Source of the DNA: Cruoricaptor ignavus
GTDB lineage: Bacteria; Bacteroidota; Bacteroidia; Flavobacteriales; Weeksellaceae
Reading direction: 5' to 3'
Assembly: GCF_900141665.1 (NCBI RefSeq)
Contig: NZ_FQYI01000006.1
Location: 62,001 to 126,000 of the forward strand
DNA: 64,000 nucleotides
The stretch's first letter is position 1. Each line of letters begins with the position of its first letter. The notes below the pieces were generated by a model. That model ran no database searches, was not told where the DNA came from, and saw nothing but the letters and a program-made list of their open reading frames with translations. A program made the position numbers and the translations under genes. Of this stretch, positions 14,987 to 46,557 are shown one piece after another.

Positions 14987-14994
14987 GTATCATC

Positions 14995-16196: not shown

Positions 16197-16237
16197 ACCC
16201 TCTAAGTTTTTGCAAATTTAAAATTTCCCAGCAAATC

Positions 16238-17437: not shown

Positions 17438-17454
17438 AATCTTTTATTTAAAAC

Positions 17455-18612: not shown

Positions 18613-18632
18613 TACTCTGATTTATTATTATA

Positions 18633-19748: not shown

Positions 19749-19766
19749 TTTTGCTTTGTTTAAAAA

Positions 19767-24252: not shown

Positions 24253-24255
24253 GAT

Positions 24256-25470: not shown

Positions 25471-25492
25471 CTTTTTTCAAGTAGGTATTTCA

Positions 25493-27504: not shown

Positions 27505-27522
27505 TACTTTTAGGCTTGTAGT

Positions 27523-30105: not shown

Positions 30106-30109
30106 CTGT

Positions 30110-30568
30110 CTATATTTTTTTATAAAATCTTGCCGGGTTCCCAATCCAGATTTCGTTAGCCGGCACATCTTTGGTCACCACGCTCCCTGCTCCCACGAGA
30201 GCATTTTCGCCGATGGTATTCCCTGCAATTATTGTCGCATTCGCACCGATGGAGGCACCCTTTTTTATAACAGTTTTTTCCAGCTTAAAATCTCTGTTTC
30301 CGGATCGCGGCATCAGGTCGTTTGTAAAGGTGACATTAGGGCCTATGAACACATCGTCCTCCACGGTCACGCCATCCCATAGCTGCACGCCGGGCTTTAT
30401 AGTAACGCGGTTGCCGATCTTCACATCGTTTTCAATGAATACCTGGCAGTTTATATTGCAGGCTTCCCCGATTTCCGCCCCGCCCAGCACCACACAGTAT
30501 TGCCATATCATAGTGCCCTCGCCTATGTTCCGCGTCTGCACATCTGAGGTAGGGTGAATTTTAATCAT
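30110..30568 (-). CDS. fdtC: Hexapeptide N-acetyltransferase, FdtC/QdtC-like
   Basis: A left-handed beta-helix acetyltransferase of 152 residues from the ATG at 30568. Hexapeptide rungs include [37 protein letters not shown] and [16 protein letters not shown], and it ends [13 protein letters not shown]-like ([13 protein letters not shown]). It would acetylate the 3-amino group made by the FdtB-like enzyme. It overlaps the fdtA-like gene by 8 bp and ends 4 bp before the aminotransferase gene. The same fold serves other sugars, so the substrate follows from context. Confidence 0.85.
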
Positions 30569-30968
30569 TCTTAAAACTTTTGAATTCTTCGTAATCTCTG
30601 AAATAATCTGCTTCATCGTAATATTCAGAGGCGAGGCAAAGCAATACGGCGCTGTGCGTGAAATGTATATCCCGCCATATCAGCCTGGGGAGGTACAGGC
30701 CCTTGGAAGGATGATCCAGCACGAAGCTATCGCGGTTTCCGTCCAGATCCTCGGTGTTGAAAGTAATGGTGCCGGATACTGCAAAAATTAGCTGCTGCAG
30801 TTCCCTGTGGGCGTGCCCACCCCGCACCACATCCTGTGGCGTGTAGTAAGTCCAGTATACCCTCTTCACTTCAAAGGGTACATTCTTCAAAGATTCTGCG
30901 ATGGTGATATAGCCTAAGCTTGGATTACCGATTTTTGAAAGATCGATATACTGAGGGGTTTGCTTCAT
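30561..30968 (-). CDS. fdtA: dTDP-4-oxo-6-deoxyglucose ketoisomerase, FdtA/QdtA family
   Basis: A 135-residue cupin ketoisomerase. It has [41 protein letters not shown] with histidines of the active site, ISRELQQ-like [12 protein letters not shown], and [32 protein letters not shown], which is the diagnostic C-terminus of this family. It shifts the keto group of dTDP-4-oxo-6-deoxyglucose to C3. The substrate is made by RmlB, so locus B depends on the dTDP-rhamnose genes that appear to begin at the window edge. Confidence 0.92.
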
Positions 30969-30975
30969 CTTATGG

Positions 30976-31965
30976 TCAGTCTAATTCGCAATTTAGTAGT
31001 TTGTATCCTCCCGTAAACTTTGTTTTCCACTCCTGCCAGTTCCGAAAATCCTCCCGGCTGAAGTGCTTTTCAATAAAATCCTTAAAAACAAAACTTTCGG
31101 TATTCATATCCATCTTACCTGAGTACCACAATTCGTTGAGATTGCTGTTAAAACCAAAGATCGAGAAATCCACTTCTTCAAATTCGTTGGTTGCGGAGCT
31201 GCTGAAGGTAGTTTTCACCAGCTCTTCGGCGCTTTTCCCTGCCTGCAAAGGGATTTGATTGTCGCGGTAATATGTAAGCGTGCGCAGGATCTGTTCGTTC
31301 TCATCAAGTGTATGGATGCCCCGCCACAATTCTTTAAAATAATTTGTGCTAAATACTGCTCCGGCTACTGTGTATACAGCATAAAATTTAGACAGTTTCT
31401 CGACAATTAAATTTTTAATAAATCCAAGTTTTATCAGAATATAGTAAAAGTACTTTCCCGGAGATTCCGTCAGGAGCCGCAGATTCTTTAGGTTCACAGA
31501 TGTCAGTGGCGTTAATATCTCGTGATTTCCGAAAGAGCGGATGTCCCCCTGAAGCAGTAGCGGTGATCCTAACCAGAGCATTTTATAAATTAAAAGCCCG
31601 TGCATTTCCATAAATTCTCTCACCTCCTCCAAATCTACCTTATTGGTAATGTACATATCATCCTCCAGAAGAAGAAAAAAAGGCTTATCTGTCTGAGATA
31701 TTTCCCGGTACCAGAAATCTCCGGGAAACTTCAACTCAGACTTTACAATATTCCCGCTTTCAATCATTGCAGATTTCTGCTCGTAATATTCAGATTTCCT
31801 GATAATTATGTCAGGATAAGATTTCAGGAGACGGGCAAGGTATCTCTCGGGTGTCCCGTCGTCCAGAATTATTATTCGGTCGTAGCCTGAAATATTTTCT
31901 GTGACAGTCCTCAGGCATTTATCCAGCAAATAGGGTCGGTTGAAGCTTTTTATAAAAATATCCAT
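30976..31965 (-). CDS. Glycosyltransferase-like protein (GT-A fold, family unclear)
   Basis: A 329-residue protein starting MDIFIKSFNRPYLLDKCLRTV, followed by RIIILDDGTPERY, a GT2-like first strand and DDG motif. FFLLLEDDMYIT around residue 97 gives the acidic metal-binding motif of GT-A enzymes. The C-terminal half (about residues 150-329) has no motif I recognise. It lies between fdtA and the cupin gene, so it probably transfers a sugar of the locus B repeat unit, perhaps the 3-acetamido sugar; that assignment is only proximity. Confidence 0.7.
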   Translation of the reverse strand: MDIFIKSFNRPYLLDKCLRTVTENISGYDRIIILDDGTPERYLARLLKSYPDIIIRKSEYYEQKSAMIESGNIVKSELKFPGDFWYREISQTDKPFFLLLEDDMYITNKVDLEEVREFMEMHGLLIYKMLWLGSPLLLQGDIRSFGNHEILTPLTSVNLKNLRLLTESPGKYFYYILIKLGFIKNLIVEKLSKFYAVYTVAGAVFSTNYFKELWRGIHTLDENEQILRTLTYYRDNQIPLQAGKSAEELVKTTFSSSATNEFEEVDFSIFGFNSNLNELWYSGKMDMNTESFVFKDFIEKHFSREDFRNWQEWKTKFTGGYKLLNCELD

Positions 31966-31987
31966 TACTCAGCTGTTAGCTTTGTTG

Positions 31988-32329
31988 TTACGCCCTGCTG
32001 TAATCGTCTTCGATTCTTACAATATCATCTTCGCCGAAGTAGTCGCCGTACTGCACCTCTATAAAGAACAGATCTTCGCTGCCGGCATTTTCTATACGGT
32101 GATTGGCACCGCGGGGAATGCGGACCACCTCCCCCGGCAGGTATTGTTTTACCTCATCATTCAGCGTTACGGTACCCACACCGGTGATGATGGTCCAGAC
32201 TTCGGCCCTGTGCTTATGGTACTGCAGGGAAAGCCTTCCGCCCGGCGCTACTCTTATTTTCTTTACTTTGTGCGTGGATGCATCTTCTAGCACCCAATAC
32301 TCGCCCCACGGTCTAAGATCGTGTTCCAT
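31988..32329 (-). CDS. Stand-alone mannose-6-phosphate isomerase type II cupin domain (locus B copy)
   Basis: A 113-residue cupin, almost the same sequence as the copy at 11256-11603 from [11 protein letters not shown] to [13 protein letters not shown]. The metal-ligand histidines in [10 protein letters not shown] and PRGANHRI are present. It overlaps the end of wzc by 1 bp and is followed by the glycosyltransferase-like gene. Locus B has no gmd, fcl or manC, so a GDP-mannose role is less obvious here. The shared wzc-cupin order in both loci shows they derive from a common ancestor block. Confidence 0.85.
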   Translation of the reverse strand: MEHDLRPWGEYWVLEDASTHKVKKIRVAPGGRLSLQYHKHRAEVWTIITGVGTVTLNDEVKQYLPGEVVRIPRGANHRIENAGSEDLFFIEVQYGDYFGEDDIVRIEDDYSRA

Positions 32330-34707
32330 TAAAATTTAGCTTTTATTTTTTCCCAGAAATTCTGCCTTGACTGGCCATATTTATAGCCGTAGCCATACTT
32401 ACCGCCATAGCCGAAATATCGCTTATTCAGGTCATTAATTACAAAGGCTGTATTCTTGATTTTCTTGCTCCTGATATTGTACTCCGCAAACTCTATGAGG
32501 TCGTTCGTTGTATAGCCCGATCTGGTAAGATACACCGTGGCATCCGCAAGCGGGGCAATTTCAAAGGAATCCGAAACAAGCATCAGCGGCGCTGTATCCA
32601 GTATTATATAATCGTAGTCCCTTTTCAGCGCTTCCACCAACTGGGCATACCTCCCGTTGGCGAGGAGCTCCGCAGGATTTGGAGGGATGGCTCCGGAAAA
32701 AATCACTTTCAGAAAAGAGTTATTTCTGCTTGTGTTGATAATTTCCGCGGGCGTTACTGAGGGGTCGTAAAGAAATTCTGTAAGTCCCTTCCCCAGTTGT
32801 CCCGACTCATATCTCGATAGCTGCGGATTTCTGATGTCCGACCCGATCAGCAATACCTTGCGCGATGCGCTGGCGAGGATAAGCGCGAGGTTGACGGCTG
32901 TAAAGGTTTTTCCCTCCCCTTTCACGGAGGAGGTCACCATCACCACCCTGCCCTCTCCAGATTGCGGCAGCATAAAGTTTAAGTTGGTTGCCAATATCCT
33001 GAAGGCTTCCGCCAGCGGAGAAAGGTCGTTCGCGGAAACAAGGTCTTTCTGCCCCGAAGGTACGGAAGGAATTTCCCCTACCACAGGGATGCCGTGTACC
33101 AGCCGCTCCAGATCGGCACGGGTCTTAATCTTATTGTTAAGCAGTTCCGAAAGATAGATGAGCGCAAGCGGAACTAGAAGCCCCAGGGCCATAGCCACAG
33201 CATAGTATACATTGCGTTTGGGTGCCACGATACCCGTGGTAAGAGCATCATCTACAATGCGGGCTTTCGGTGCTGCGATCTTTAGGGCAATGGCAGCCTC
33301 CTCCCTTTTTTGAAGGAGAAGCAGGTACAGTTGCTCCTTAATAGTCTGCTGCCGCTCGATGCTGCGGAAAAGCTTCTCCTGCTGCGGGATCTTCGATATC
33401 CTTCCGGCAAGTCTGCTTTGCTCCTGCGCTAGGGCATTGCGCTCTACCACCAGTGCCTGCCTGCTCTTCTGCAGGCTTTGCTGGATCGCCGTACGCATAG
33501 AGTTGATCTGCTTGGTAACATCCTGAACTACGGGGTTTGCCGGCGTGGAGTTCTCCAGCAAACGGTTCCGCTCTATTATGAGCTGGTTATAGGTAGCAAT
33601 ATTTGCAGCTATGGCATTGTCCTGCAGCCCTATATTGAGTGGGAGCACCTGATAGCTCCCCTGCCTGTTAAGGTAGCCCAGAAGTCCGTCGGTAAGCTGA
33701 AGCTGTGCCTCGTTCTCCATCTCTCTCTGCTTTGCTGCTGCGCCGCTCTGCAGCGAGAGGTTTGCCTCCGTCTCGATATCAGCAATATTGTTGTTTCTTT
33801 TGAAGCTTTCCTTCTGATTTTCCACATCACCGAGTTCCTGCCCTATGATCCGCACGCGTTCATCGATGAAATCAGCCGTTTTCTGCGCTTCAGAATTTTT
33901 GTCAAGGATGGCATCCCTGTTATAATCTACTGCAAGCCTATTGAGGATATCCTCAGCTTTCTCAGGCAGTTCGGACTGCATACTTAGTACTATTACGGTG
34001 GTATTTAAATCCGTAAGGTATGCGCTGAGACGCCCGAGAAACTGCCTTGCGCGGTTCATCCCGGACATAAACTCTAGCTCATACACCGTATTGCGGTCGT
34101 CATTGCCTTTATAATCACCATTGGCCTGGAACATATACACCCCGAACGGCAGCTTTACAGCCCTGTTGAGAGGCGCCGTGATCTTTCCTCCCTTGAAGTA
34201 CTCGGAATGTAGCGTGATATTGCTGTTGGTTACGGTAGCTTTCACAAGCCCTGGATACGCGGCTTTCGGCATCTCCTGCAGTACCCTCACGGTAAACGGT
34301 GCGCTGCTTTTGTACAGCTCTGTACGCTTGAATTTGCCTGGCTTATATATCACGGTTTCCAGGCCAAGCTCCCGCACCACCGACAACATCAGCTTCCTGG
34401 AGCGGAATATTTCAATTTCGTTATCCACGGAATTCGTACCCATACCCGAGATAGCGCCAATCTGGTTCGCCACAGAAAGCTCCGGCCCGCTCCCCACAGA
34501 TTTGTTGGCTTCCTTGATGAGCACGGTAGATTCCGTCCTGTATACGGTACTGCTGTAGCGCAGTTTCAGCCAGGCAATGGTAAGGGCTATCAGAAGGCTG
34601 AGGGCGATCCAAGGCCATCTGTGCAGATAAGGCCTGAGTACCTCCCTGAAGTTTTTTCTTTTATCCTCTTCCGCAATAAGCTGAGGCGCTGGTAAGCTGT
34701 TCTCCAA
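32329..34707 (-). CDS. wzc: Polysaccharide co-polymerase and tyrosine autokinase, Wzc (locus B)
   Basis: A second Wzc of 792 residues, clearly paralogous to the locus A protein: RPYLHRWPWIALS precedes TM1, a coiled-coil periplasmic domain follows, then TM2 (VYYAVAMALGLLVPLALIYL) and the kinase with [16 protein letters not shown] and [10 protein letters not shown]. The tail has the tyrosine run YFGYGGKYGYGYKYG. The likely start is a TTG at 34707; a stop lies three codons upstream and the only other candidate is a weak ATT. It lies 6 bp from the wza stop. It should control length and export of the locus B polymer. Confidence 0.94.
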   Translation of the reverse strand: MENSLPAPQLIAEEDKRKNFREVLRPYLHRWPWIALSLLIALTIAWLKLRYSSTVYRTESTVLIKEANKSVGSGPELSVANQIGAISGMGTNSVDNEIEIFRSRKLMLSVVRELGLETVIYKPGKFKRTELYKSSAPFTVRVLQEMPKAAYPGLVKATVTNSNITLHSEYFKGGKITAPLNRAVKLPFGVYMFQANGDYKGNDDRNTVYELEFMSGMNRARQFLGRLSAYLTDLNTTVIVLSMQSELPEKAEDILNRLAVDYNRDAILDKNSEAQKTADFIDERVRIIGQELGDVENQKESFKRNNNIADIETEANLSLQSGAAAKQREMENEAQLQLTDGLLGYLNRQGSYQVLPLNIGLQDNAIAANIATYNQLIIERNRLLENSTPANPVVQDVTKQINSMRTAIQQSLQKSRQALVVERNALAQEQSRLAGRISKIPQQEKLFRSIERQQTIKEQLYLLLLQKREEAAIALKIAAPKARIVDDALTTGIVAPKRNVYYAVAMALGLLVPLALIYLSELLNNKIKTRADLERLVHGIPVVGEIPSVPSGQKDLVSANDLSPLAEAFRILATNLNFMLPQSGEGRVVMVTSSVKGEGKTFTAVNLALILASASRKVLLIGSDIRNPQLSRYESGQLGKGLTEFLYDPSVTPAEIINTSRNNSFLKVIFSGAIPPNPAELLANGRYAQLVEALKRDYDYIILDTAPLMLVSDSFEIAPLADATVYLTRSGYTTNDLIEFAEYNIRSKKIKNTAFVINDLNKRYFGYGGKYGYGYKYGQSRQNFWEKIKAKF

Positions 34708-34713
34708 AATTTG

Positions 34714-35520
34714 TTATTTTCTTAAAATAATAGCTACTAATGTAATCAGCAGGGACGCGCCGGAGAGGTACAGCCCGATGTTGGGGTTGGTTCTGGCGGT
34801 ATTCTGCTTTGTGGTATTTGCTTCCACATAGATTACATCATTCTGTTTCAGGTAATAATACGGAGAATTGATAAATTCCGCAGAGGTAAGATTCAGCCGC
34901 TGCCGCGTGATCTCGCCGTCGTTATTTCTTACCACGAGTACATTCGTGCGGACTCCGTAGATCGTGAGGTCGCCCGCCAGGCCAAGCGCGCTGAGTACTG
35001 TAGCCGAACCGTCTGGGATATTATAAGTGCCTGGGTTGGCCACCTCGCCCAGTACGGTAACTTTAAAATTGTTCGTACGCAGATCTACCACGGGGTTTTT
35101 CACATATTCCGTAAGCAGCAGTGTGAGCTTTTCGCGGAACTGTTCCTGATTAAGCCCCGTAGTGCTGATTTTTCCTATCACAGGATAGTTAATATATCCG
35201 TCCGTATCTACCGTATATACAGTCCCCGGCCCGGAGGTAGATGCCGCCTGCGCCCCGGATCTGCTCTGGGAATACTGCGCCACGCTTCCGCTGGAGGAGT
35301 AGGTTTGATTGAAAGGCCGCACCACATCCATATCCTTGGCACTTACAAAGATTACCAGCTGATCGCCGGGCTGAATGGTGTTTACCGTATTCTTCACCGA
35401 CGCCTCCACCGCAATACTTTCGATGTCCTGCATATAATTTATATCATTCTGCGGCCTACACGATAGTACTGCAAATATCAAGGCGATAAGCGGCAATATC
35501 AGCTTAAAAACTTTACTCAT
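34714..35520 (-). CDS. wza: Polysaccharide export outer-membrane lipoprotein, Wza-like (locus B)
   Basis: A 268-residue protein with lipobox FAVLSC (Cys21), the poly-export domain (TIQPGDQLVIFVSAKDMDVVRPFNQ, GYINYPVIGKISTTGLNQEQF) and the SLBB part (FKVTVLGEVANPGTYNI, SALGLAGDLTIYGVR), ending in a membrane helix. I chose the ATG at 35520, since the signal peptide begins there. It is the paralog of the plus-strand gene at 14177 but runs in the same direction as its wzc and 31 bp downstream of the pglF-like gene. Confidence 0.93.
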   Translation of the reverse strand: MSKVFKLILPLIALIFAVLSCRPQNDINYMQDIESIAVEASVKNTVNTIQPGDQLVIFVSAKDMDVVRPFNQTYSSSGSVAQYSQSRSGAQAASTSGPGTVYTVDTDGYINYPVIGKISTTGLNQEQFREKLTLLLTEYVKNPVVDLRTNNFKVTVLGEVANPGTYNIPDGSATVLSALGLAGDLTIYGVRTNVLVVRNNDGEITRQRLNLTSAEFINSPYYYLKQNDVIYVEANTTKQNTARTNPNIGLYLSGASLLITLVAIILRK

Positions 35521-35551
35521 CCTTATGTATTCTGCGGTCAAAGATAAATAT

Positions 35552-37438
35552 TTATTTCGCCACATCAAGCATTTCAAATTCCGAATTTCTGCTGATGAAC
35601 TCCGGCACCATAGCCTTGAGAACTTTTACCACCTCCGTTCTGTCCTCCTGCCCTGCAGCGGTTATAATTTCTTGGTAAAGTAAATCTATGCGTTCGTAAG
35701 GCACTCCGGGGCCCTTGGAAATCATTATTTTCTCGTGGTGCGTAGGCATCGTTTTGGCATTGTCGCTCAGCAGCTCTTCATATAGCTTCTCACCCGGGCG
35801 CAAACCTGTGATGGTGATAGGTATATCCACCTCCGGTATCATTCCGGAAAGCCGGATCATCCTCCGGGCGAGATCGATAATCTTCACCGGCTCCCCCATA
35901 TCGAAGACATAGATCTCCCCGCCCTGCCCCATGGTCCCTGCCTGCAGCACCAGCTCGCAAGCCTCAGGTATGGTCATAAAGTAGCGCACTATTTCCGGGT
36001 GGGTGATGGTTACTGGCCCCCCCGCCTCTATCTGCCTCTTGAAATGAGGGATTACAGACCCGTTGGAGCCAAGCACATTCCCGAATCTCGTGGTGATAAA
36101 TTTGGTACGCGCCGCCGTATGCTTCTGCAGCGCCTGCACATAGAGCTCCGCGGCGCGCTTCGTAGCACCCATTACATTGGTAGGGTTCACGGCTTTATCC
36201 GTTGATACCATTACAAAACGGTTGATGTTGTACCTGCAGGCTAGGTCTGCAAGATTCTTGGTACCCAGGATGTTCACCAGCACGCCTTCGTGCGGGTTTT
36301 CCTCTATCAGCGGCACATGCTTGTAGGCAGCCGCGTGATACACCATCGAGATATCGTACTGCTGGAAAATGGGCTCCAGACGCTCCCTGTTGGATATATC
36401 TGCAAGGATGAACTTAAAATTCACATCCGGAAACTTGCTGCTCATCTCAAGCTCAACATCGTAAAGAGGCGTCTCCGCCTGATCCAGCACCACTACCAGC
36501 GACGGCCGGAAGCCCGCCACCTGCCGCACTATCTCGCTGCCGATGGAGCCCGCACCGCCGGTTACCAGTACCGCCTTCCCGTAGTGCCGTTTCTTTACTT
36601 CTTCATTTTCTATGGAGATGGGCTTGCGGTTCAGCAGGTCCTCAATCTGCAGCTGCCGGATTCCCGCAGCCGGGTCGGCGGCGCGCATATCCTGCACCAC
36701 GGGGGCCTTCAGTACCTGTAGGCCTGCCCCCAGGGCTAGGTTGGTCCACTCCTCCAGCTCTTCCGGGGACATCAGCTCTTTTATTATTACCACCGCATCA
36801 AATTTCTCCCCGGCATTCTCCTTATTCAGAATTTCTTTGGAATAGATCCTCCTTCCCAAAAGCTGCGCCCGCTTATGATCCGTTCGTGCAGTAATAAAGC
36901 CCGCAAGCTCGTAGGGCACCACAGGATTGTCCAGTATCGCATTTGCCACCGCCACGGAGGACTCGCCAATCCCCAGTACCAGCACCCTCTTCTTGGACGA
37001 GGCACGCTTAAACTCATTGAGGAAATGAAAAACCTGCTTAATGACGATGCGGAAAAGGAAAAGCAAAATGACCAGCACCAGCATATAGACCAGCGGTACA
37101 GTGGTAAGGTAGAGCTTCTGGCGGGTGGTAAAATAGACCGCATAATTCAGCGCCAGCAGCGTAGCCGAAGTACAGAAACAGGCAAGCAGGATCTTGAACA
37201 GGTCAAAAAAATTAGAGTGGCGGATGATCCCCGCATAGGTCCGGAACACGAACATATACACTACCGTGGTGCCGATGATGATGGCACCCTTCATCTCGTG
37301 GGAAATATAATCCGGGGGAATGACATTCAGCCGGAGGATGATCTCAGAAGAAATCAGCAGCGCCAACAAGGAGAGCAGGATATCGAACAGAAGTACTGCC
37401 CAACGGGGCATATACCGCATTTCTGATATCTTTATCAT
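35552..37438 (-). CDS. pglF: Membrane-bound UDP-sugar 4,6-dehydratase, PglF/WbpM/CapD family
   Basis: A 628-residue enzyme with four to five N-terminal TM helices, a Rossmann-like middle domain and a C-terminal extended-SDR domain. The latter has LVTGGAGSIGSEIVRQV and YHAAAYKHVPLIEENP. It also has STDKAVNPTNVMGATKRAAE, where Met replaces the usual catalytic Tyr, and TRFGNVLGSNGSVIPHFKRQIE. It dehydrates UDP-GlcNAc to the 4-keto-6-deoxy sugar with retained configuration. With the PglE-like aminotransferase just upstream it opens the bacillosamine route. I chose the ATG at 37438, but starts at 37486 or 37477 are possible. Confidence 0.92.
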   Translation of the reverse strand: MIKISEMRYMPRWAVLLFDILLSLLALLISSEIILRLNVIPPDYISHEMKGAIIIGTTVVYMFVFRTYAGIIRHSNFFDLFKILLACFCTSATLLALNYAVYFTTRQKLYLTTVPLVYMLVLVILLFLFRIVIKQVFHFLNEFKRASSKKRVLVLGIGESSVAVANAILDNPVVPYELAGFITARTDHKRAQLLGRRIYSKEILNKENAGEKFDAVVIIKELMSPEELEEWTNLALGAGLQVLKAPVVQDMRAADPAAGIRQLQIEDLLNRKPISIENEEVKKRHYGKAVLVTGGAGSIGSEIVRQVAGFRPSLVVVLDQAETPLYDVELEMSSKFPDVNFKFILADISNRERLEPIFQQYDISMVYHAAAYKHVPLIEENPHEGVLVNILGTKNLADLACRYNINRFVMVSTDKAVNPTNVMGATKRAAELYVQALQKHTAARTKFITTRFGNVLGSNGSVIPHFKRQIEAGGPVTITHPEIVRYFMTIPEACELVLQAGTMGQGGEIYVFDMGEPVKIIDLARRMIRLSGMIPEVDIPITITGLRPGEKLYEELLSDNAKTMPTHHEKIMISKGPGVPYERIDLLYQEIITAAGQEDRTEVVKVLKAMVPEFISRNSEFEMLDVAK

Positions 37439-37518
37439 ATTATCGCCTTTGTAGATGTGCGAAAAGGCAGATTTCATCCGTTTCATCCTGCTGCTCCTTG
37501 TCGAATTTATTTTATTGC

Positions 37519-38655
37519 TTATCTGAAGTTTTCAAGCACCTCCCGGATCCTTCCCCGGTCATCCTCTGTCAGGTTAGATCCAGACGGCAGGCACAGCCCG
37601 TCGCGGAACAGTTGCTCCGCAGTGCCTCCACCGAAGAATGCCGCATCCGAAAACACCGGCTGCATATGCATAGGCTTCCACAATGGTCTGGATTCTATGT
37701 TATCCTCTAGAAATTTCAGCCTGAGGTCTTCCCTTGTGAAGCCCGTTTTTTCAGAATCAATTACTATCGCAGAGAGCCAGTGGTTGGAGTAAAAAGCATC
37801 CGACGGCTCGGTAAGAAGGCTCACGCCGCCCCACCCGCGGAATATCTCCTCATAAAAGCTATGGTTGCGCCTGCGTGCCTCCACTCTCTCCTGCAGCACC
37901 TCCATCTGCCCCCTGCCTATGCCGGCAACTATGTTGCTCATCCGGTAGTTGTACCCGATCTCCGAATGCTGGTAGTGCGGAGCCTGGTCCCTCGCCTGCG
38001 TGGAGAGGAATATCGCCTTCTGCTTCTGCTCCTCCGTACTGCAGGCAAGTGCGCCGCCCCCGGAGGTAGTGATGATTTTATTCCCGTTAAAACTCAGGAT
38101 AGCCATATCGCCAAGCGTGCCGCATTTTTTCTCCTTATACACGCTGCCCAGCGCCTCTGCCGCATCCTCTATCACCGGTATCTCATATTCTGCCGCCACC
38201 GCCAGAATCTCGTCCATCTTCGCGGGCATACCGTAAAGATGAACTGGGATAATGGCCTTCGGCTTCCTGCCGCGCCGGATGCCGGACTCTACCGCTTCCC
38301 GCAGGGCTTCGGGGCACATATTCCAGGTCTCCGGCTCACTGTCTATAAACACGGGCTTCGCTCCTACATAGGTGATAGGATTTGCAGAAGCGGAGAAGGT
38401 CATACTCTGGCAGATCACCTCATCACCATAGCCTACACCGAGGATGATAAGCGCCAGGTGCAGGGCTGCCGTTCCGGCACTCAGTGCCGCCACCCTCATA
38501 TCTCCGCCGAGAAAGTCCGAAAGGCTGTTTTCAAACTCATTCACATTGGGGCCTAGGGGCGCCACCCAGTTTTCATCAAAGGCTTCGTGGATGTATTTCA
38601 GCTCGCCGCCGCCCATATGCGGAGACGAGAGCCATATCTTCGGTTTATTTTCCAT
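37519..38655 (-). CDS. pglE: UDP-4-amino sugar aminotransferase, PglE/LegC-like (DegT family)
   Basis: A PLP enzyme of 378 residues from the ATG at 38655. The opening IWLSSPHMGGGELKYIHEAF is the PglE/LegC signature. ILSFNGNKIITTSGGG holds the PLP-binding Lys, and VIEDAAEALGS is the usual Asp-containing segment. It should aminate C4 of the UDP-4-keto sugar made by the PglF-like enzyme. It overlaps the upstream oxidoreductase gene by 11 bp, and the acetyltransferase that finishes the pathway lies 22 kb away at 14995. Confidence 0.9.
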   Translation of the reverse strand: MENKPKIWLSSPHMGGGELKYIHEAFDENWVAPLGPNVNEFENSLSDFLGGDMRVAALSAGTAALHLALIILGVGYGDEVICQSMTFSASANPITYVGAKPVFIDSEPETWNMCPEALREAVESGIRRGRKPKAIIPVHLYGMPAKMDEILAVAAEYEIPVIEDAAEALGSVYKEKKCGTLGDMAILSFNGNKIITTSGGGALACSTEEQKQKAIFLSTQARDQAPHYQHSEIGYNYRMSNIVAGIGRGQMEVLQERVEARRRNHSFYEEIFRGWGGVSLLTEPSDAFYSNHWLSAIVIDSEKTGFTREDLRLKFLEDNIESRPLWKPMHMQPVFSDAAFFGGGTAEQLFRDGLCLPSGSNLTEDDRGRIREVLENFR

Positions 38656-39718
38656 AGAGTGTATTTTCAGTAAGTGATGCGGCAGTTTTATTATTCTGGC
38701 GTGCCGCTCCTGCCGCGGCATAGATGTTTTCTATTATGTTCGTCACCTCTCTGCCGTCCTCCGCGGATACTGCCACTTCTGCGCCGTCCTTCAGGACATC
38801 CACCACATTCTGGATGATGAAGTGATGATTGGCGGCAGATCCCTTGTAGCTCCCGTAGTCGTTGGAGGCTGGCGTATCCGCCAGTATCGGCATCCGGTAG
38901 TTCTCTATGTGGCAGTAATCTACCCTGTCCATATACTGCCCGCCGATCTTCACGGAGCCTTTCTCCGCAATCACCGTCATAGAGCTTTCCATATTGCAGT
39001 CCCATACGCTTGTGGTAAAGTTCAGGCACCCCATTCCCCCGTCCCGAAGGCGGAAGTTCACCATCCCAGAATCTTCGAAGCAGGTAAGCCCTTTATGATT
39101 AAAGCTCTCCATCCGCGCAGTGATGTCGCTGATGCTGCCGAACATCCAGTACATTATATCAATAAAATGGGAAAACTGAGTGAAGAGAGTCCCCCCATCC
39201 AGATCAGCGGTGCCCCGCCAGCCGTTTGCCTGGTAATACCGCGCGTCGCGGTTCCAGAAGCAGTTCAGCTGCAGCATGAATATTCTACCCAGCATCCCGC
39301 TCTCCACAATGGATTTCAGCCACACCGCCGGCGGCGAAAACCTGTTCTGCATTACCATAAACAGTTTTACTCCCTTTTGCTCTGCCAGGGACAGCAGCTC
39401 ATCCGCCTGCCAGGTGTGCAGCGCCATAGGCTTCTCCAGCACTATGTGGCACCCTGCATTTATAAGTTTTTTTGCGTGCCGGTAGTGGCATCCGTTTGGC
39501 GTGGCGATGCATACCACATCGGGCAGAGATCCGCCCGCAAGCAGATCCTCCAGGGAGGAAAAGAAAGCTGCTCCGTAGGACTGCGCAATTTCCGAAACCT
39601 CCTCCCGGACATCCGCGATGCTCTGGAGCTCGCAGTCCGGGTGGGAAATTATCATCTCCAAATGCCTCCTGCCGATGTGGCCGCAGCCTAATACCGCAAA
39701 CTTAATCTTATTAGTCAT
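38645..39718 (-). CDS. Gfo/Idh/MocA-family sugar oxidoreductase (WlbA/WbpB-like)
   Basis: An NAD(P)-dependent oxidoreductase of 357 residues. The Rossmann part has AVLGCGHIGRRHLEMI (GxGxxG) and the EKPMAL motif; the catalytic half has MVMQNRFSPPAVWLK and HFIDIMYWMFG. The NRFSPP segment resembles WlbA/WbpB, which oxidise C3 of UDP-GlcNAcA. No UDP-sugar 6-dehydrogenase is visible in the window, so the actual substrate is open. It is the first gene of the long locus B operon and lies downstream of a stem-loop and a promoter-like element. Confidence 0.82.
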   Translation of the reverse strand: MTNKIKFAVLGCGHIGRRHLEMIISHPDCELQSIADVREEVSEIAQSYGAAFFSSLEDLLAGGSLPDVVCIATPNGCHYRHAKKLINAGCHIVLEKPMALHTWQADELLSLAEQKGVKLFMVMQNRFSPPAVWLKSIVESGMLGRIFMLQLNCFWNRDARYYQANGWRGTADLDGGTLFTQFSHFIDIMYWMFGSISDITARMESFNHKGLTCFEDSGMVNFRLRDGGMGCLNFTTSVWDCNMESSMTVIAEKGSVKIGGQYMDRVDYCHIENYRMPILADTPASNDYGSYKGSAANHHFIIQNVVDVLKDGAEVAVSAEDGREVTNIIENIYAAAGAARQNNKTAASLTENTLYGK

Positions 39719-39913: not shown

Positions 39914-40156
39914 TTATGCCTTTCTCATTTTTTTTGCGCCGTAGGCTGCAGCTGCCAACCCTGCCGCCGCAAGGAACGGTATGTACTGATCTATCGGGCT
40001 GGTAGGAAGGTTCCCCGGGTTGCCCGGTCCCCTTTCGGTTTCTTCCTGGGCGTATTCCGCCTCTGGCACCTCATAGATAAATCTGTTCGCGGATGCTTCC
40101 TGAGCGTATGCCTGCGACAGGGCAGCCAAGGAAAGTAGGATTATCAACTTTTTCAT
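39914..40156 (-). CDS. Small exported protein with SPID motif, membrane helix and basic tail
   Basis: An 80-residue protein of no family I can verify. A signal peptide (MKKLIILLSLAALSQAYAQ) is followed by an acidic spacer of about 30 residues (EVPEAEYAQEETER). Then come SPIDQYIPFL, a hydrophobic alanine-rich helix and KKMRKA. The motif-helix-basic tail order is that of tripartite C-terminal sorting signals such as PEP-CTERM. I recall a family named PID-CTERM in Bacteroidota for such tails, but cannot check it here. It lies 17 bp downstream of the large T9SS protein. The equivalent at 45785 follows the paralogous large protein, so the two genes probably act together. Confidence 0.85.
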   Translation of the reverse strand: MKKLIILLSLAALSQAYAQEASANRFIYEVPEAEYAQEETERGPGNPGNLPTSPIDQYIPFLAAAGLAAAAYGAKKMRKA

Positions 40157-40173
40157 TTTATTCTGAGTTTCGG

Positions 40174-43100
40174 TTATTTCTTAAGAACTTTCTTAGTTGC
40201 GGTAGTCTGTCCCGCGCTGATTACAAAGTGGTATACCCCTTTTGCCCAGGCAGATGCGGAAACCGCTGCCTTCCTTTCTGCAGGGCGGGAAACTTGTACC
40301 AGCTTGCCTGCCGCGTCGTACACCCTGATCTCCGAGATCTTCTCAGGAGCAGCAACCACAAAGCCGCCGTTGTCTTCATAAACGCTCACCTGATCTGCCA
40401 CAGCAGCTTCTGCAGCAGCGAGGAATCTGGCGTCGGTATATGCGATCTCGAACCTGTCTGCAAGCGAGCCTGCCTCTGCGCGGAAGCTGTAAGGCTTCTC
40501 CGAAAGGTTTACTACCGCGCCGGTTGCTTTGTCTCTCAGGTAGATGCCCTGGGCACCGGCAAATATTCCTTCAGCCCTGTCCACCTTGATTTTATATGTA
40601 CCGTCTGCGAAGGCATTAGCGCCAAGCTTTACCAAATCCTCTGCACTGAAAGGCGCTCTACCGTGGATGATAAGCTTCTTCCCGTCTGCCACGGTATAAA
40701 GCAGGTCGGAAGCATTGCTGATATCCTCGGAATCATCCTTGCCGAATGCGTTGGAGCCGCCGCCGTAGTATACCACGGCTATCTGGTTGTTTACGCCAGT
40801 CGGTGTGTCCAGGCTTAGCCAGTAGCGGTCTTTATCCTGCTTCTTAGCGGTATTTCCGAAGAATGCCACACCGCCTTCCTTCACCATCATTTCGTTGGTA
40901 AATGTAGCATTGCCTGCCGTAGTAGCTTTGGCAATAAAGCCCTGCCCTACTTTCAGGATGCCGTTCGGTACTTTATCATTCGCTGTTTCCGCTTGCGCGT
41001 TGGATTGTGCTACCCCTCCGGTTGCTCTCGCACCGGTAGAGTTATCCACATTGTAGGTAGCGTAGGAGTTACCGTTGTATGCACCGCCGTACTGCTGCAC
41101 CTCCTTGTTTACCGCGCTATCCCACAGATAGAATGTAGTATCTAGATTATTGTTTACCACGAAGAAGTTTTCAAGGCTAAACTTCGCAGCGTATGGGTTG
41201 CCCAGAAGGTTGTAGCCTTCGCCGCTTTTCTCCATTGCGTAGGTTTGGTTGCCGTGTACCACCTCTCCTTGGAAGTTGTAAAGATTCTCAGCCGCAGCAT
41301 CCTTCACAGCGTAGCCTTTGCCCACTATATATTCCCCTTCGGAATCTTGGAAGAAATCCGTAGCTTCCTCGTATGCCTGCACTCTTGGAGAACCTGTAGA
41401 AGCCTTGATGTTCAGACCCTTCACCGGCGCAGAAAGGAAGTTGTACTGCTCGCCGTCAGAGTTCTTCGTTTCGCGCTGTACGGTGATCTGCCCGCTTACG
41501 CTTGCCGCCGCATTATCAATTACGAAGCTGCCGTCCTTCTCCACGATGAAGTTGCTGCCGTCTCCCTGGTTTTCGAAGTTTCCTGCGGAGATGTAGCGCC
41601 CGTCTGCAGCGGTTACCTTATAGCCCGGCTGTACGCTAAGCTTGCCCTTGGCAATCAGGTTGTTGGATTCTTGGGTGTTGAAGTTGTTCGCAAGGTTTAC
41701 ATTGTAGAAGGTTTCTGCCTTCGCAGTATCGTTGCCGTTGATTACCTGCGTACCTGTTCCTGCAAAGGTAATGGTGCTGTTGCCCATCTCGAAAGTTCCC
41801 TCATTATTCCAGTTGCCGTGCATCTCGATTTCCGTGGTGCCGTTCATCGTAAGCTTAGCGCCCTCCTGAATAGTGATATTGTTGAAGGTAGCGGTGTTCT
41901 TATACTTCGCTGCATTGGCATCGTCAGCCTTTACCACAGGCTTGTTAACAGCGGTGGCTGGGATGATGACATCCGTAGTCTTATCCGGCACCTGATAGTT
42001 CTCCCAGTTTTCGCAGTAGAACCAGTTGGTACCGTTGGAACCCAGCCAGGTTCCCGGCTGCACGGTGCCGTTCTCTGTGAAGGCTTTTGCATCCGCATTA
42101 GCTACGGTAGGTTTTATAGTAGGTTTACCAATAGTCCATTTGCTTGGCGTGTTTACGGAGCTTAGGATGTTTCTGAAGCTACCCTCGTGCGTTTCGCTGT
42201 TTTTGTAGTATGCCGCTCCCTGACCGTTAGGCAAGGCAAAGTTCAGGCATTCCAGAGCGGCAGGAAGGCGGGAAGACCTTTTCTTTTTCTCAGTTTTATT
42301 TCCGTTAGTAGTATCTGCACCGCTGTTTGCCTGGGTTAATGGCACCCAGTCATTACCGTTGGTAAAGCCGTGCAGCAGCTTACCTCTCAGTATGTAGCGC
42401 GCAGCGCCAGTTGTAGGCGTTTTTTGATCCAGCTCAAAACCGCCCTGGATAAGATACATCTGATCCGGATCGTCGTTGCTAATATTAGGTTTATTGGATT
42501 TTACAACTTCGAATGAGAAGTTTCTACTTTCAGTGCTTACCGTTTGTTGCGGGCTTACGAAATGAATCTTATTAAATCCGTTGGAAGTACCATTCAGATC
42601 AAATACCATCACGGTGCCCTTCTTTATTGGGGTGTCACCCGTATATTTAAAGGTGATAAGGCCGGGCTCAGTGTGTGGCTTATCACCTGGGCCACCCCAC
42701 CTGTCCGTTCTTACATTCGCTGCTGCGCCGGCTTCGTAGCGAGAATTGGCGATGCCGAAGTGCGTACCCGGCGCTATGTCCACCAGCGTGGCGATCAGAA
42801 ACCTGTCCGCCGGACCTTTCGTTTCATATTTCCCATCAAAGCCTACGAAGAACAGCTCGCCCTGCTTGAAGATGGTGCCGCCCACCGGCATAGGGTTTTC
42901 AGGCGGGGTGGTGGTATCTTCTTCTTTTATGATGAAGGTAACATCAATGGTGTTGGATTTCTGCCCGCCCGCATTAGCCGCTACGAACTTGGTTGTAAAA
43001 GTGCCCGCAGCAGTAGGCGTACCGCTGATTTCCCCGCTTTCAGCATTTAGGGATAGGCCTGCGGGAAGGCTGCTGCCTGCCACTACCTGGAAAGATACGG

Positions 43101-43713
43101 CATCGTCCGACGCATCCAGCTCATAGGAGAACTCCTGCCCTACCGTACCTTGCTGCGGAGCGGCAGGCGCCGTAAGCACCGGTGCTGCTGGGGTAGTGGT
43201 GCCCTGTCCCGTTGCTGTGATTTTAAAATTCTGAATCCTTACACCCTTACCTTTGTCACCGTTATTGGTAAGGCGAACTACGAAATTACCGGGGTTCGAA
43301 ATATTAAATGTTCCGCCATCAATATATTTAGATGATGTCGGCGTTTTTGACAACACACTTTCAGACCAGGTAGTACCGCCATCCTTGGAGATTTCAACCT
43401 TGGCAGAGTTGTTATCGCCGTTGCCATATGTGGCTACTTCTAAGGTAATAGTAGCAGTTGCATAGGATGACAAATTATACATACTGCTGGTAAGCTCATC
43501 CTTTTCCGTAGCAGATTTAGTTTCCAACAACCAGTACCCATTACCACCAGTTTGGCTGATAGGTTGGGTGGATACATTATTAATTGCCTTCCAATCGTTA
43601 GGTACATTTTTTCCGTCTTGTTCAAAAATCACGGTTTGCGAGAACATACTCGCCGAGGTCACTAGGAATGCCGCCACCGCAGCGTTCCGTGTTTGGGATA
43701 GAATTGTAATCAT
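40174..43713 (-). CDS. Large secreted protein with Ig-like domain and T9SS-type C-terminal domain
   Basis: A 1179-residue exported protein. Residues 1-26 are a signal peptide ending ASMFSQ. A beta-rich domain follows to about 175, then a Pro/Ala linker and a putative Ig (He_PIG) domain near 190-265 with SLPAGLSLNAESGEISGTPTAAGTF. Later comes a region rich in asparagine and threonine with rungs such as FNNITIQEGAKLTM, then a module shared with the plus-strand protein at 44164 (GNPY, FYLWDSAVN, KKLIIHGRAPF, GIYLRDKATG). The last 70 residues (IRVYDAAGKLVQ, WAKGVYHFVISAG, ATKKVLKK) fit a T9SS type A sorting domain. It is probably surface-exposed; binding target and activity are unknown. Confidence 0.9.
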   Translation of the reverse strand: MITILSQTRNAAVAAFLVTSASMFSQTVIFEQDGKNVPNDWKAINNVSTQPISQTGGNGYWLLETKSATEKDELTSSMYNLSSYATATITLEVATYGNGDNNSAKVEISKDGGTTWSESVLSKTPTSSKYIDGGTFNISNPGNFVVRLTNNGDKGKGVRIQNFKITATGQGTTTPAAPVLTAPAAPQQGTVGQEFSYELDASDDAVSFQVVAGSSLPAGLSLNAESGEISGTPTAAGTFTTKFVAANAGGQKSNTIDVTFIIKEEDTTTPPENPMPVGGTIFKQGELFFVGFDGKYETKGPADRFLIATLVDIAPGTHFGIANSRYEAGAAANVRTDRWGGPGDKPHTEPGLITFKYTGDTPIKKGTVMVFDLNGTSNGFNKIHFVSPQQTVSTESRNFSFEVVKSNKPNISNDDPDQMYLIQGGFELDQKTPTTGAARYILRGKLLHGFTNGNDWVPLTQANSGADTTNGNKTEKKKRSSRLPAALECLNFALPNGQGAAYYKNSETHEGSFRNILSSVNTPSKWTIGKPTIKPTVANADAKAFTENGTVQPGTWLGSNGTNWFYCENWENYQVPDKTTDVIIPATAVNKPVVKADDANAAKYKNTATFNNITIQEGAKLTMNGTTEIEMHGNWNNEGTFEMGNSTITFAGTGTQVINGNDTAKAETFYNVNLANNFNTQESNNLIAKGKLSVQPGYKVTAADGRYISAGNFENQGDGSNFIVEKDGSFVIDNAAASVSGQITVQRETKNSDGEQYNFLSAPVKGLNIKASTGSPRVQAYEEATDFFQDSEGEYIVGKGYAVKDAAAENLYNFQGEVVHGNQTYAMEKSGEGYNLLGNPYAAKFSLENFFVVNNNLDTTFYLWDSAVNKEVQQYGGAYNGNSYATYNVDNSTGARATGGVAQSNAQAETANDKVPNGILKVGQGFIAKATTAGNATFTNEMMVKEGGVAFFGNTAKKQDKDRYWLSLDTPTGVNNQIAVVYYGGGSNAFGKDDSEDISNASDLLYTVADGKKLIIHGRAPFSAEDLVKLGANAFADGTYKIKVDRAEGIFAGAQGIYLRDKATGAVVNLSEKPYSFRAEAGSLADRFEIAYTDARFLAAAEAAVADQVSVYEDNGGFVVAAPEKISEIRVYDAAGKLVQVSRPAERKAAVSASAWAKGVYHFVISAGQTTATKKVLKK

Positions 43714-43927
43714 CAGTTTTACAGTTTTTTACATGCCAAAAATACTTTTATCCCCGCACGCGTATGTTAACTTAATATTAACAGCATGTTAACTTTTGTT
43801 CATATTTTCTAAAAATTAGTGTCCACCGCCACGGCCATTGCGCGCATCATTTCCCGCCCTATATTCTGAGAAACTCCATTATTTCAGTAGTACAACTGCA
43901 TTACAACTCCAATATTTTATTGCATCT

Positions 43928-43961
43928 GTATTGGACTTGTATTGGACTTTGTATTGGACTT
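43928..43961. repeat. Three tandem copies of GTATTGGACTT
   Basis: Copies start at 43928, 43939 and 43951; the second has one extra T, so the spacing is 11 and 12 bp, about one helical turn. A CCAATA at 43909-43914 forms an inverted repeat with the first TATTGG. The arrangement suits a regulator binding one face of the helix, but no regulator is known. Confidence 0.6.
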
Positions 43962-44134
43962 AGATAAAATTTTGCCGGTAAAAAGCTCTTGAGATTCTGG
44001 TAACATTTTTATAATCCGCGTATCGGGCGGCTGTGGTATGCACTTTGCTTATAAGATCTGCAAGCATAATATGCAGAGCACATTAAATATTTAATAAAAA
44101 TTTTTGTCATAGCTGATAATTTATTAAATTTCCT

Positions 44135-44142
44135 TACTTTTG
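44135..44142 (+). promoter_or_regulatory. Candidate -7 element (TACTTTTG) for the plus-strand cassette
   Basis: A perfect TAnnTTTG match that ends 21 bp before the ATG at 44164. The nearest upstream TTG (44104-44106) gives a spacing of 28 bp, longer than usual, so the -33 part is weak. Confidence 0.5.
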
Positions 44143-44163
44143 CGAACTCAAACATAATATAAT

Positions 44164-45780
44164 ATGAAGATGAAACTACAACAGACAAGAAAAGCTGCGG
44201 CGGCGGCTGCAGTACTTGCCTTCACGGGTGCCTTTGCACAGACTACCTATACTTACGAAAACGGTCAATGGACCCCGCGGGAGCCTGCCAGCTCCTTTAG
44301 GAACACCATCGTGGTAAAATCTGACCTTGAGGCTGGCTTCAGCAGGGCGAAGGACATCATCGTAGAGCCGGGCGTGAGCCTTACCATCAACCGCTCTATG
44401 GAGATGAAAGGCGCGCTGCAGAACTTCGGTACCATAGTGGTAAAGGATGGCGCGAGCTTCGTGCAGAGGAACACCAACGAAGAAGGTACGGATGACAACT
44501 ACTCTGAAGGTGTCTTTGTATATGAGCAGAATACTAAGCCTCTATCCCGCCTACAGTATGCTGCTTGGTCCACCCCAGTGGTGAGCAATATTACGCTTAA
44601 AGACTTCTCGCCAAAAACGGTAGATGGGAGATTTTATCACTATAACAACGGTAGGTTTGAGCCAGTAGATGCCCACAGGACTAAGTTCGGAGTGGGAAGG
44701 GGCTACCTGATCCGCGTACCGAACGATTTCCCTACGGCACCAGAGACGGCAGTATTTACTGGCAGATTCGAAGGATCCAATCCGAACAACGGGAATATCA
44801 ACGGCAGCCTATACTTTGTAGAAGGTACCTATGCCTTCGTAGGAAACCCATACCCAAGTACTCTGGACCTGGATGCCTTCCTGACGGCAAATCCTAAGAT
44901 CAACGCGACCTACATCTGGAACAGCGTGGAGGCTAACAATGTGGCAGCAGGCCAAACCCCGATGGAGCAGCTGTACTTCGCATACACCATTACAGGCTCT
45001 ACCGAAATCACCGGGAATGAGCTTGTACCGCCGGCACAAGGCTTCCTTGTAGCCCGCCAGGAGGGCGTAAAGTCGGTGAATTTCACCAACGATATGCGCT
45101 TGATTGATTATGAATTTTTCAACAGAGGTGCCAAGACTGCGGACCGCTTCTGGCTGAACATAAAGAATGATGCAGGGCTAACGAAAAACCTGTTGGTAGG
45201 CTACAAAGGCGGCAGCAAAAACTACGAGGGAGGGTACGATGCTGAGCTGATCCCTTCCGGAGGTGCCGATATCTACAGCAGCGTGGAGGGTAAGAAACTC
45301 ATCATCGACGGCAGAGGATCCTTCGATGCAGCTGATGCCATCACTCTTGGAGTAGATGTGGAGCAGGCGGGTACTTATCAGCTGTCCCTAGTGAAGAAAG
45401 AAGGTGCTTTTGATATCCAGAAAATCTACCTCCGCGATAATGAAACAGGCGCAACCGCTGAACTTTCAGCTGGAGAGTATAGCTTTACTGCAGAGAAATC
45501 TAACCCTGGCCGCTTTACCGTATACTATGATAATGCAAAACTGGCAACTGGGGAAGCAGCGAAAGCCGGCATCCAGATTTACAGCAACGCAGGGAAAGTG
45601 AATGTAACTTCAGCGGAGACAATTGCGAAGATCAGCGTGTATGACCTTAGCGGCAGACTATTGACTTCTCAGAATGTAAATGCTAAAAAAGCTGAAGTAA
45701 GAGTGAATGGCAGCAAACTTGTACTGGTAAATGTAGAACTTGCTGACGGAAATAAGGTTAACAAAAAAATAAAACTATAA
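44164..45780 (+). CDS. Secreted T9SS-type protein, paralog of the 1179-residue protein
   Basis: A 538-residue exported protein with a signal peptide (KMKLQQTRKAAAAAAVLAFTGAFA, cleaved near residue 26). The next part has TIVVKSDLEAGFSRAKDIIVEPGVSL, resembling beta-helix start rungs. The middle and C-terminal parts parallel the minus-strand protein: GNPYPSTLDLDAFL, TYIWNSVEAN, RFWLNIKND, KKLIIDGRGSF, KIYLRDNETGATAELS. The final section, with ISVYDLSGRLLTSQN and VNKKIKL, is a T9SS type A sorting tail. It is shorter because it lacks the Ig-like domain. A small SPIN-motif gene follows 4 bp downstream. Function is unknown. Confidence 0.88.
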   Translation: MKMKLQQTRKAAAAAAVLAFTGAFAQTTYTYENGQWTPREPASSFRNTIVVKSDLEAGFSRAKDIIVEPGVSLTINRSMEMKGALQNFGTIVVKDGASFVQRNTNEEGTDDNYSEGVFVYEQNTKPLSRLQYAAWSTPVVSNITLKDFSPKTVDGRFYHYNNGRFEPVDAHRTKFGVGRGYLIRVPNDFPTAPETAVFTGRFEGSNPNNGNINGSLYFVEGTYAFVGNPYPSTLDLDAFLTANPKINATYIWNSVEANNVAAGQTPMEQLYFAYTITGSTEITGNELVPPAQGFLVARQEGVKSVNFTNDMRLIDYEFFNRGAKTADRFWLNIKNDAGLTKNLLVGYKGGSKNYEGGYDAELIPSGGADIYSSVEGKKLIIDGRGSFDAADAITLGVDVEQAGTYQLSLVKKEGAFDIQKIYLRDNETGATAELSAGEYSFTAEKSNPGRFTVYYDNAKLATGEAAKAGIQIYSNAGKVNVTSAETIAKISVYDLSGRLLTSQNVNAKKAEVRVNGSKLVLVNVELADGNKVNKKIKL

Positions 45781-45784
45781 GAAT

Positions 45785-46039
45785 ATGAAAAAGATTTTAG
45801 CAACTCTGATGCTCGTGGCAGGCTTGGGAAGCTCCTATGCCGGAGAGCCGAATATTTATGAAAATAACACAGAAAGGGCAAACAGTATTAACCCTGGGCA
45901 TGATGGTGTATTCTTTGGAGATGATGATCCGGAGCCAAATGTACCGCCTTCCCCGATTAATGATTACCTGCCGGTTCTAATAATTGCGGGTGTTGCCCTT
46001 GCAGCTTATATGGGTAGAAAACAGAGCGCAAAAGCATAA
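45785..46039 (+). CDS. Small exported protein with SPIN motif, membrane helix and basic tail
   Basis: An 84-residue protein laid out as the one at 39914. A signal peptide (MKKILATLMLVAGLGSSYA) comes first, then an acidic spacer with GDDDPEPN, SPINDYLPVLI, a hydrophobic AGVALAAYMG helix and RKQSAKA. The pair share the P-S-P-I-(D/N)-x-Y-x-P-x-L pattern and the AG-A-AAY run in the helix. The gene begins 4 bp after the large protein, so the two are translationally linked. It could be a membrane-anchored partner or a substrate of an exosortase-like enzyme. No such enzyme gene is in the window. Confidence 0.83.
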   Translation: MKKILATLMLVAGLGSSYAGEPNIYENNTERANSINPGHDGVFFGDDDPEPNVPPSPINDYLPVLIIAGVALAAYMGRKQSAKA

Positions 46040-46107: not shown

Positions 46108-46557
46108 TTAGAAGATTTCCTGTAAAACCTCCCACTCAAAACCACGGCCCATCAAATACCGCGTAGTTTTAATGTTCTTCTGATAATCCTGCAGGCCCTT
46201 CAGCTTGCCGTGATATTTCTCCCACTCTTTCTTTGCCGTTTCTAAATAATCTTCTTCATCAATTTCATCAAAGCAACTGTTCATCAGCTTTTCCGTGATG
46301 CCCTTCATTTTCAGATGCTGCCGGATTTTGTTTCTGCCCCACTGTTTCTGGTAAAATTTTCCACGGATAAAGCTTCGCGTAAACCTCTCCTCATTCAGAT
46401 AATTTTCCCGAATCAAGTAAAGCAGAATTTCCTCCTTCGCTTCCGGAATCAGCACGAATTCCCGCATCTTCTGCTCCACTTCGCTATGGCACCTGTCCTG
46501 ATACGCACAGTAGTTCGCCATTTTCTGCTTGATTTCGTTGAAGGGGTAAGATTTCAA
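46108..46557 (-). CDS. recX: RecX-family regulatory protein
   Basis: A 149-residue protein of the RecX family, which binds and modulates RecA filaments. ANYCAYQDRCHSEVEQKM and YLIRENYLNEERFTRSFIRGKFYQKQWGRNKIRQHLKMKGI carry the helical-repeat pattern with the conserved F-x-G-K and the WG-x-x-K-I-x-x-x-L segment. The first in-frame codon at 46557 is TTG; the alternative is the ATG at 46521 (137 residues). Homologs extend upstream of that ATG with a similar segment, so I prefer the TTG. A hexamer repeat lies within 2 bp of the start and may have altered the upstream region. Confidence 0.87.
   Translation of the reverse strand: MKSYPFNEIKQKMANYCAYQDRCHSEVEQKMREFVLIPEAKEEILLYLIRENYLNEERFTRSFIRGKFYQKQWGRNKIRQHLKMKGITEKLMNSCFDEIDEEDYLETAKKEWEKYHGKLKGLQDYQKNIKTTRYLMGRGFEWEVLQEIF

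Follow-up and report, generated by a model that had tools for sequence, protein, structure and literature searches.

Exported microproteins with PID-type exosortase tails are encoded beside T9SS cargo genes in Cruoricaptor ignavus and other Bacteroidota

Two very small exported proteins of Cruoricaptor ignavus, each ending in a PID-type exosortase tail, are encoded directly behind large proteins carrying a T9SS-type sorting domain. On the comparison of genomes, the best reading is that the small protein would be a substrate of the exosortase XrtF and, for one subclass of T9SS cargo, a dedicated partner. Such pairs are found again in genomes across the phylum, which suggests that two export pathways regarded as separate cooperate.

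The two gene pairs and their genomic setting

The window (the whole stretch of 64,000 nucleotides that was analysed) contains two divergent pairs, in which the microprotein gene follows the cargo gene at a distance of 17 bp on the reverse strand and of 4 bp on the forward strand (Table 1). These gaps, the coordinates of the pairs and the lengths of 80 and 84 residues are exactly those given in a preliminary description of this DNA. Its assignment of both large proteins to the T9SS type, with a common C-terminal module, is borne out by the sorting models and by an alignment of the two proteins (30% identity across ~490 residues, E 1e-35) that spans the motifs GNPY, KKLII.GR and YLRD..TGA. The sorting domain of the 1179-residue cargo scores above the TIGR04183 cut-off whereas that of the 538-residue cargo is borderline, reaching it with its frame neighbours. 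The GNPY module is recognized in both by profile A8, from which the window sequences were left out. Because the C-terminal modules are homologous, the two pairs are related copies that were not separately invented, and not the independent copies first described; they are two of three in the genome. The predicted structure of the 538-residue cargo has a mean pLDDT of 41, with values above 75 in the C-terminal domain only. RNA folding at the 4-bp junction (44164-45780 / 45785-46039) revealed nothing unusual.

The pairs are localized at the edge of an exopolysaccharide or capsule gene cluster. Clusters of this kind are the classical companions of exosortases (Haft 2006, cited in PMC10936215). On the opposite side the pairs are flanked by recX and glyA, and this flank recurs in several relatives. 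The polysaccharide cluster itself includes two separate wzc-like plus wza-like pairs (11646-14986 and 32329-35565), which suggests that two export loci were fused or one was duplicated.

Table 1. Features of the cargo and microprotein locus in the window
Feature	Position	Strand	Basis
Exopolysaccharide/capsule gene cluster, with the pairs at its edge (two wza-like, two wzc-like, WbpM-like epimerase, DegT, Gfo/Idh, sugar transferase)	1..39718		Pfam for eight genes; gene list
Exported microprotein, 80 aa: signal peptide ~1-18, N24-R-F26 motif, acidic linker, SPID tail, basic end	39914..40156	-	sequence; A2 profile E 3.2e-17 (this sequence is itself in A2)
Putative PID-type exosortase tail of the 80-aa microprotein (PID, transmembrane segment, KK..RK)	39917..40030	-	sequence direct; profile match G000:C8:101917-102030
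T9SS cargo of type A (1179 aa); He_PIG Ig domain, weak match to G8	40174..43713	-	TIGR04183 32.8 bits (cut-off 23); PF05345
T9SS C-terminal sorting domain of the 1179-aa cargo	40177..40359	-	TIGR04183 39.3 bits
GNPY module of the 1179-aa cargo	40438..41223	-	profile A8, E 8.4e-72
T9SS cargo of 538 aa; tail resembling type A/C	44164..45780	+	NF033708 29.6 bits (cut-off 40); TIGR04183 20.7 bits, 23 with frame neighbours
GNPY module of the 538-aa cargo	44824..45528	+	profile A8, E 2.6e-58
T9SS C-terminal sorting domain of the 538-aa cargo	45577..45708	+	TIGR04183 19.6 bits
Exported microprotein, 84 aa: signal peptide ~1-19, N23-I-Y25 motif, acidic linker, SPIN tail, basic end	45785..46039	+	sequence; weak NF046080 match, 11.1 bits
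Putative PID-type exosortase tail, PIN variant, of the 84-aa microprotein	45923..46033	+	profile match G000:C8:107923-108033
recX, flank of the pair locus	46108..46521	-	PF02631/PF21981

Architecture of the microproteins

Both microproteins display a P-I-D/N motif, a hydrophobic helix and a basic C-terminus, and hydropathy places the sites P54-I-D (80 aa) and P57-I-N (84 aa) among hydrophobic ends. By inspection, their signal peptides comprise MKK, a hydrophobic stretch and an A-x-A-like site. This layout of signal peptide, short linker, P-I-D/N, helix and basic end agrees with the preliminary description of a tripartite sorting tail with hardly any passenger. The same description named a PID-CTERM family. 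The kinship stands as regards the arrangement of motif, helix and basic end and the linking series of relatives, but not as regards the scores: with NF046080 (PID_CTERM, cut-off 26 bits), the one NCBIfam model of relevance, the 84-residue protein stays below the cut-off and the 80-residue protein has no match. A search of the whole genome with this model gave no match either, and the window tails were reached only with custom-built profiles. From the window's family to the PID_CTERM proteins, the tail proteins look like one continuous series.

In the window's family, the stretch from the signal peptide to PID is acidic and 20 to 78 residues long. PID microproteins of other lineages have only ~10 residues of mature part ahead of PID (e.g. 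QPGLPSAPSQAPIDGG), and in some lineages the mature protein begins with Q-P-G. Near the mature start, a motif N-x-[FY] is present in 40 of 70 family microproteins, whereas 2000 shuffles averaged 6.7 and never exceeded 16.

A short acidic linker with this conserved motif could bind the cargo and, together with the tight operon order, would suit an uncleaved escort in the inner membrane, i.e. a periplasmic chaperone that holds the cargo or delivers it to the T9SS translocon, the exosortase only recycling or removing the microprotein. We consider such an escort unlikely, since the linker is reduced to ~10 residues in several lineages, a single tail gene serves each cargo array and the strong co-occurrence with exosortases (see below) argues that processing matters. 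Mature peptides that are very short and exported, some with a Q-P-G start, would also fit a peptide signal. XrtF would then free a short exported peptide acting as a signal or matrix component, and the T9SS protein would be its receptor or carrier. Typical pheromones do not vary so widely in sequence and length, whereas the linkers of this family do, and no receptor or regulator gene was seen consistently adjoining the pairs; the probability of a peptide signal is accordingly small.

The preliminary description also proposed a shuttle for the surface protein. Known T9SS shuttles are outer membrane beta-barrels. A microprotein that offers no more than a short linker and a single helix at its C-terminus is far too small for a PorV/SprF-like beta-barrel; the size (80-84 aa) and the topology (one helix) speak against a shuttle identity of this type, and a search of both proteins against Pfam and NCBIfam gave no match to a shuttle family. 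The gene logic is similar to that of Flavobacterium johnsoniae, where type B cargo are linked to cognate shuttle genes, but cargo with type A tails reportedly go through PorV (PMC12618676). A strict shuttle, understood as a PorV/SprF-like outer membrane acceptor of T9SS cargo, is thus extremely improbable.

Pairing with T9SS cargo genes across genomes

A third cargo and tail pair is present in the same genome (L153, contig C21). The three tail genes of this genome are all located directly behind one of its ~39 T9SS-tail genes, for a random expectation of ~7e-6. These 39 matches to the T9SS tail model imply that the genome probably also encodes the T9SS core machinery. The GNP[YF] module is found in the three paired cargo proteins and in none of the other T9SS loci inspected. 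The gene behind the third pair codes for a thiol-disulfide protein that resembles ResA/TlpA and begins with a stretch similar to a signal peptide (L153:5477-6760), and genes of similar length (~430 aa) come after the pair in L174 and L185.

Among other genomes of the window's family, a same-strand T9SS-type gene lies directly upstream of all 66 evaluable tail genes, with a median gap of 15 bp; these loci were picked from the ranked match list before their neighbours were viewed and are not a random sample, and the genes of the neighbourhoods were called by a simple script. The cargo C-termini match TIGR04183 in 67 of 68 cases (the two of the window included) at E <= 0.05, which is more permissive than the curated threshold. 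Elsewhere in the order, beyond this family, 23 of 35 real tail genes adjoin a same-strand T9SS-tail gene (downstream in three of these) and the other 12 have no same-strand T9SS gene alongside. The partner C-termini match T9SS sorting models in 24 of 25 cases at this level, two of the 25 coming from the family. At the level of the phylum, 21 of 27 inspectable tail loci adjoin a T9SS-tail gene, and the partner C-termini match in 21 of 25. The preliminary description had treated the coupling to a T9SS substrate as incidental should SPI(D/N) proteins usually occur without a T9SS neighbour. These counts do not refute the pairing, and the gene linkage is conserved across family, order and phylum.

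Three order-level matches to the tail profile (L172:2389-2565, L175:2556-2732 and L183:4720-4896) were discarded as false positives. They represent a conserved 58-residue helix protein, MTIISLxQKVDIAEKIKDAP, encoded between two metabolic genes in Flavobacterium, with a weak tail-profile score. A search of 59 relatives with the DNA pattern SPI[DN].Y.P was too narrow and recovered mostly chance matches.

The distribution of the GNPY module follows that of the tail genes: in 12 genomes it occurs 30 times in ~17 clusters, 16 of which end 3' in a tail gene. In some of these loci a lone tail gene closes an array of 5-8 cargo genes, with eight in G047:C14:141148-187978 and five in G109:C1:2096150-2119088. 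Such tandem arrays are a possible source of adhesin variation. Tandem microprotein genes also exist, either directly behind one T9SS gene (L158:4954-5452) or as two full pairs (L029:6337-9534). The unpaired tail gene is typical of Flavobacterium, where it adjoins riboflavin synthase and has no T9SS neighbour; this solo gene is conserved in many species of the genus (L223-L246, locus position 6001). Since the arrays use one tail gene and Flavobacterium has unpaired tails, a strict one-to-one partner model is of limited reach.

The distances between small tails and those between cargo C-termini are correlated (Mantel r 0.70). When partners were swapped within genomes, the mean fell to 0.51 and none of the 2000 swaps reached 0.70. 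Subtypes of pairs can be told apart, cargo of 640-680 aa going with microproteins of the SPIDMYVY type and larger cargo with those of the PIDDYLPLL type. This result shows a long co-inheritance as pairs; because linked genes have a common history, linkage alone could yield the same value, and contact between the products is not implied. Mere co-regulation, with both genes in one biofilm or polysaccharide programme and their products having no direct or functional contact, would agree with the polysaccharide cluster that adjoins the pairs and with the solo tail genes of Flavobacterium. The identical two-gene order at many unrelated loci in several families, an upstream neighbour that is specifically a T9SS-tail gene, and a partner identity that tracks within genomes in the Mantel swaps all make this explanation improbable.

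Co-occurrence of tails and exosortases

An exosortase-like gene, which the preliminary description suggested looking for in the same genome, was found. It encodes XrtF (TIGR04128, 179 bits for a cut-off of 90) and adjoins the gene of an exosortase F-associated protein (TIGR04127, 146 bits). With the exosortase X model, XrtF reaches no more than 88 of 170 bits. Its residues Cys109, Arg147 and His169 are kept, and we take them to be the catalytic triad of exosortases known from the work of Haft and colleagues.

Profile A2, built from nine relatives, was searched in 198 genomes of the window's family and detected tails in 174 of them at E <= 0.1. At E <= 1e-3, a tail is present in 145 of 187 XrtF-positive genomes versus 1 of 11 XrtF-negative genomes, the exception being an 83% complete genome; 42 of the 187 have no detected tail at this threshold. 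With profile A3 (48 rows, the first of which is a hand-written consensus), tails were recovered from 67 of 236 genomes of the order, i.e. 66 of the 98 exosortase-positive genomes versus 1 of the 138 negative ones. In the phylum, PID_CTERM proteins above the curated cut-off occur in 41 of 247 genomes, and all 41 have an exosortase of the XrtF/XrtX type; the exosortase X model matches 77 of the 247. The Fisher p-values of 7e-6 (family), 1e-32 (order) and 1e-25 (phylum) are indicative only, because shared ancestry is ignored and the samples overlap. PID-CTERM probably goes with exosortases X and Y (NF046081, NF046083), and the adjacent accession numbers suggest that the three families were defined together.

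The tail gene is located in or beside the exosortase locus in six genomes, two of which also have a T9SS gene there. In L157 (genome G224), the genes for XrtF, the TIGR04127 protein, the tail protein and a T9SS-tail protein form one same-strand run. In L169 (G390; L169:3247-8398), a same-strand run opens with a T9SS-tail gene and the tail gene; next come the genes of an exosortase (80 bits, where the XrtF cut-off is 90) and of a small membrane protein, followed by another T9SS-tail gene. According to the coordinates, no more than 300 bp separate the tail gene from the exosortase gene in G461, G437, G499 and G425. The membrane protein of L169 has 107 residues and no NCBIfam match. In F. johnsoniae, deletion of xrtF or of its neighbour leads to a loss of biofilm and of colonisation like that caused by deletion of sprA, porV or porU (PMC10936215).

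Proposed mechanism

The view summarised in PMC7468200 is that exosortases cleave close to the motif, that the helix stays behind in the inner membrane and that the new C-terminus is joined to an unidentified compound. This chemistry would predict cleavage of the microprotein instead of a permanent role as the membrane anchor initially envisaged. Somewhat more probably than otherwise, in our estimation, each pair is a cassette composed of a T9SS cargo and a microprotein processed by XrtF, whose peptide tethers or assembles the cargo at the surface or in the matrix. The inferred steps, namely cleavage, transfer to an acceptor, contact between peptide and cargo, and tethering, would be ordered as follows. 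Both the cargo and the microprotein would be exported by Sec, and the microprotein would be held in the inner membrane by its C-terminal helix and basic end, with the short acidic peptide facing the periplasm. XrtF would cleave at or near P-I-D/N, releasing a peptide of ~10-80 residues that would probably be joined to an acceptor tied to either the envelope or the exopolysaccharide. In the last step the processed peptide would serve the product of the upstream cargo gene, most likely by tethering it locally or by assisting its assembly, so that this subclass of cargo would be fixed to the cell surface or matrix. That the peptide acts on an exported cargo is the simplest reading because the passenger is nearly absent and the neighbour is a T9SS cargo.

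We counted in favour of this cassette the computed gene pairing, the co-occurrence with XrtF, the linkage of exosortase, tail and T9SS genes in two operons and the co-inheritance of partners in the Mantel swaps, and also the restriction of GNP[YF] to the paired cargo, the siting of the pairs on the border of a polysaccharide cluster and the phenotype of F. johnsoniae xrtF. The XrtF genomes with no detected tail, the unpaired tails of the order and the arrays with a single tail gene were counted against it. The tether role in particular is weakened by the lineages with a mature part of ~10 residues, which leaves little to tether with.

A broader proposal is plausible and is offered more tentatively. 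Throughout Bacteroidota, an entire subclass of type A T9SS cargo could mature by way of exosortase processing of a dedicated microprotein. This would be a second route with a cognate partner beside PorV, linking exosortases, T9SS and exopolysaccharide; the PID microproteins would be the missing XrtF substrates.

Comparison with known systems

The tail family and the exosortases are already named in NCBIfam; the new part proposed here is that the microproteins are XrtF substrates and are coupled to T9SS. Literature searches on PID-CTERM, exosortase X/Y and T9SS together with exosortase found no paper on the PID-CTERM family or on the coupling, which subscription journals and the descriptive text of NCBIfam, outside the scope of these searches, may note. 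The pairing joins two export and sorting systems so far studied apart. Some type A T9SS cargo thereby gain a genetically linked partner, as is described for type B cargo (PMC12618676).

PID-CTERM proteins (NF046080) resemble the window proteins by the P-I-D motif, the helix, the basic end, the very short length and an XrtF/XrtX-type exosortase alongside. The window tails differ by scores far below the model (11.1 bits or none versus 26), and the exosortase of the genome is XrtF. The PEP-CTERM/EpsH system shares the signal peptide, the tail made of motif, helix and basic end, the exosortase and a nearby exopolysaccharide cluster. PEP-CTERM proteins mostly have real passenger domains. The window proteins, by contrast with this system, consist almost entirely of the tail, and their genes are paired with a T9SS cargo gene. 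The type B T9SS cargo with their PorP/SprF shuttle genes are alike in that a cargo gene is linked to a partner gene (PMC12618676), whereas the cargo of the window have tails of type A/C and, in place of a beta-barrel, a very small putative substrate of the exosortase type as partner. Finally, XrtF of F. johnsoniae (Fjoh_1448/1449) and its associated protein belong to the same families as those of C. ignavus, and XrtF is needed there for biofilm and surface colonisation (PMC10936215). Its substrates were stated as not yet known in 2025 (PMC12188702), and the pairing supplies candidates for these targets.
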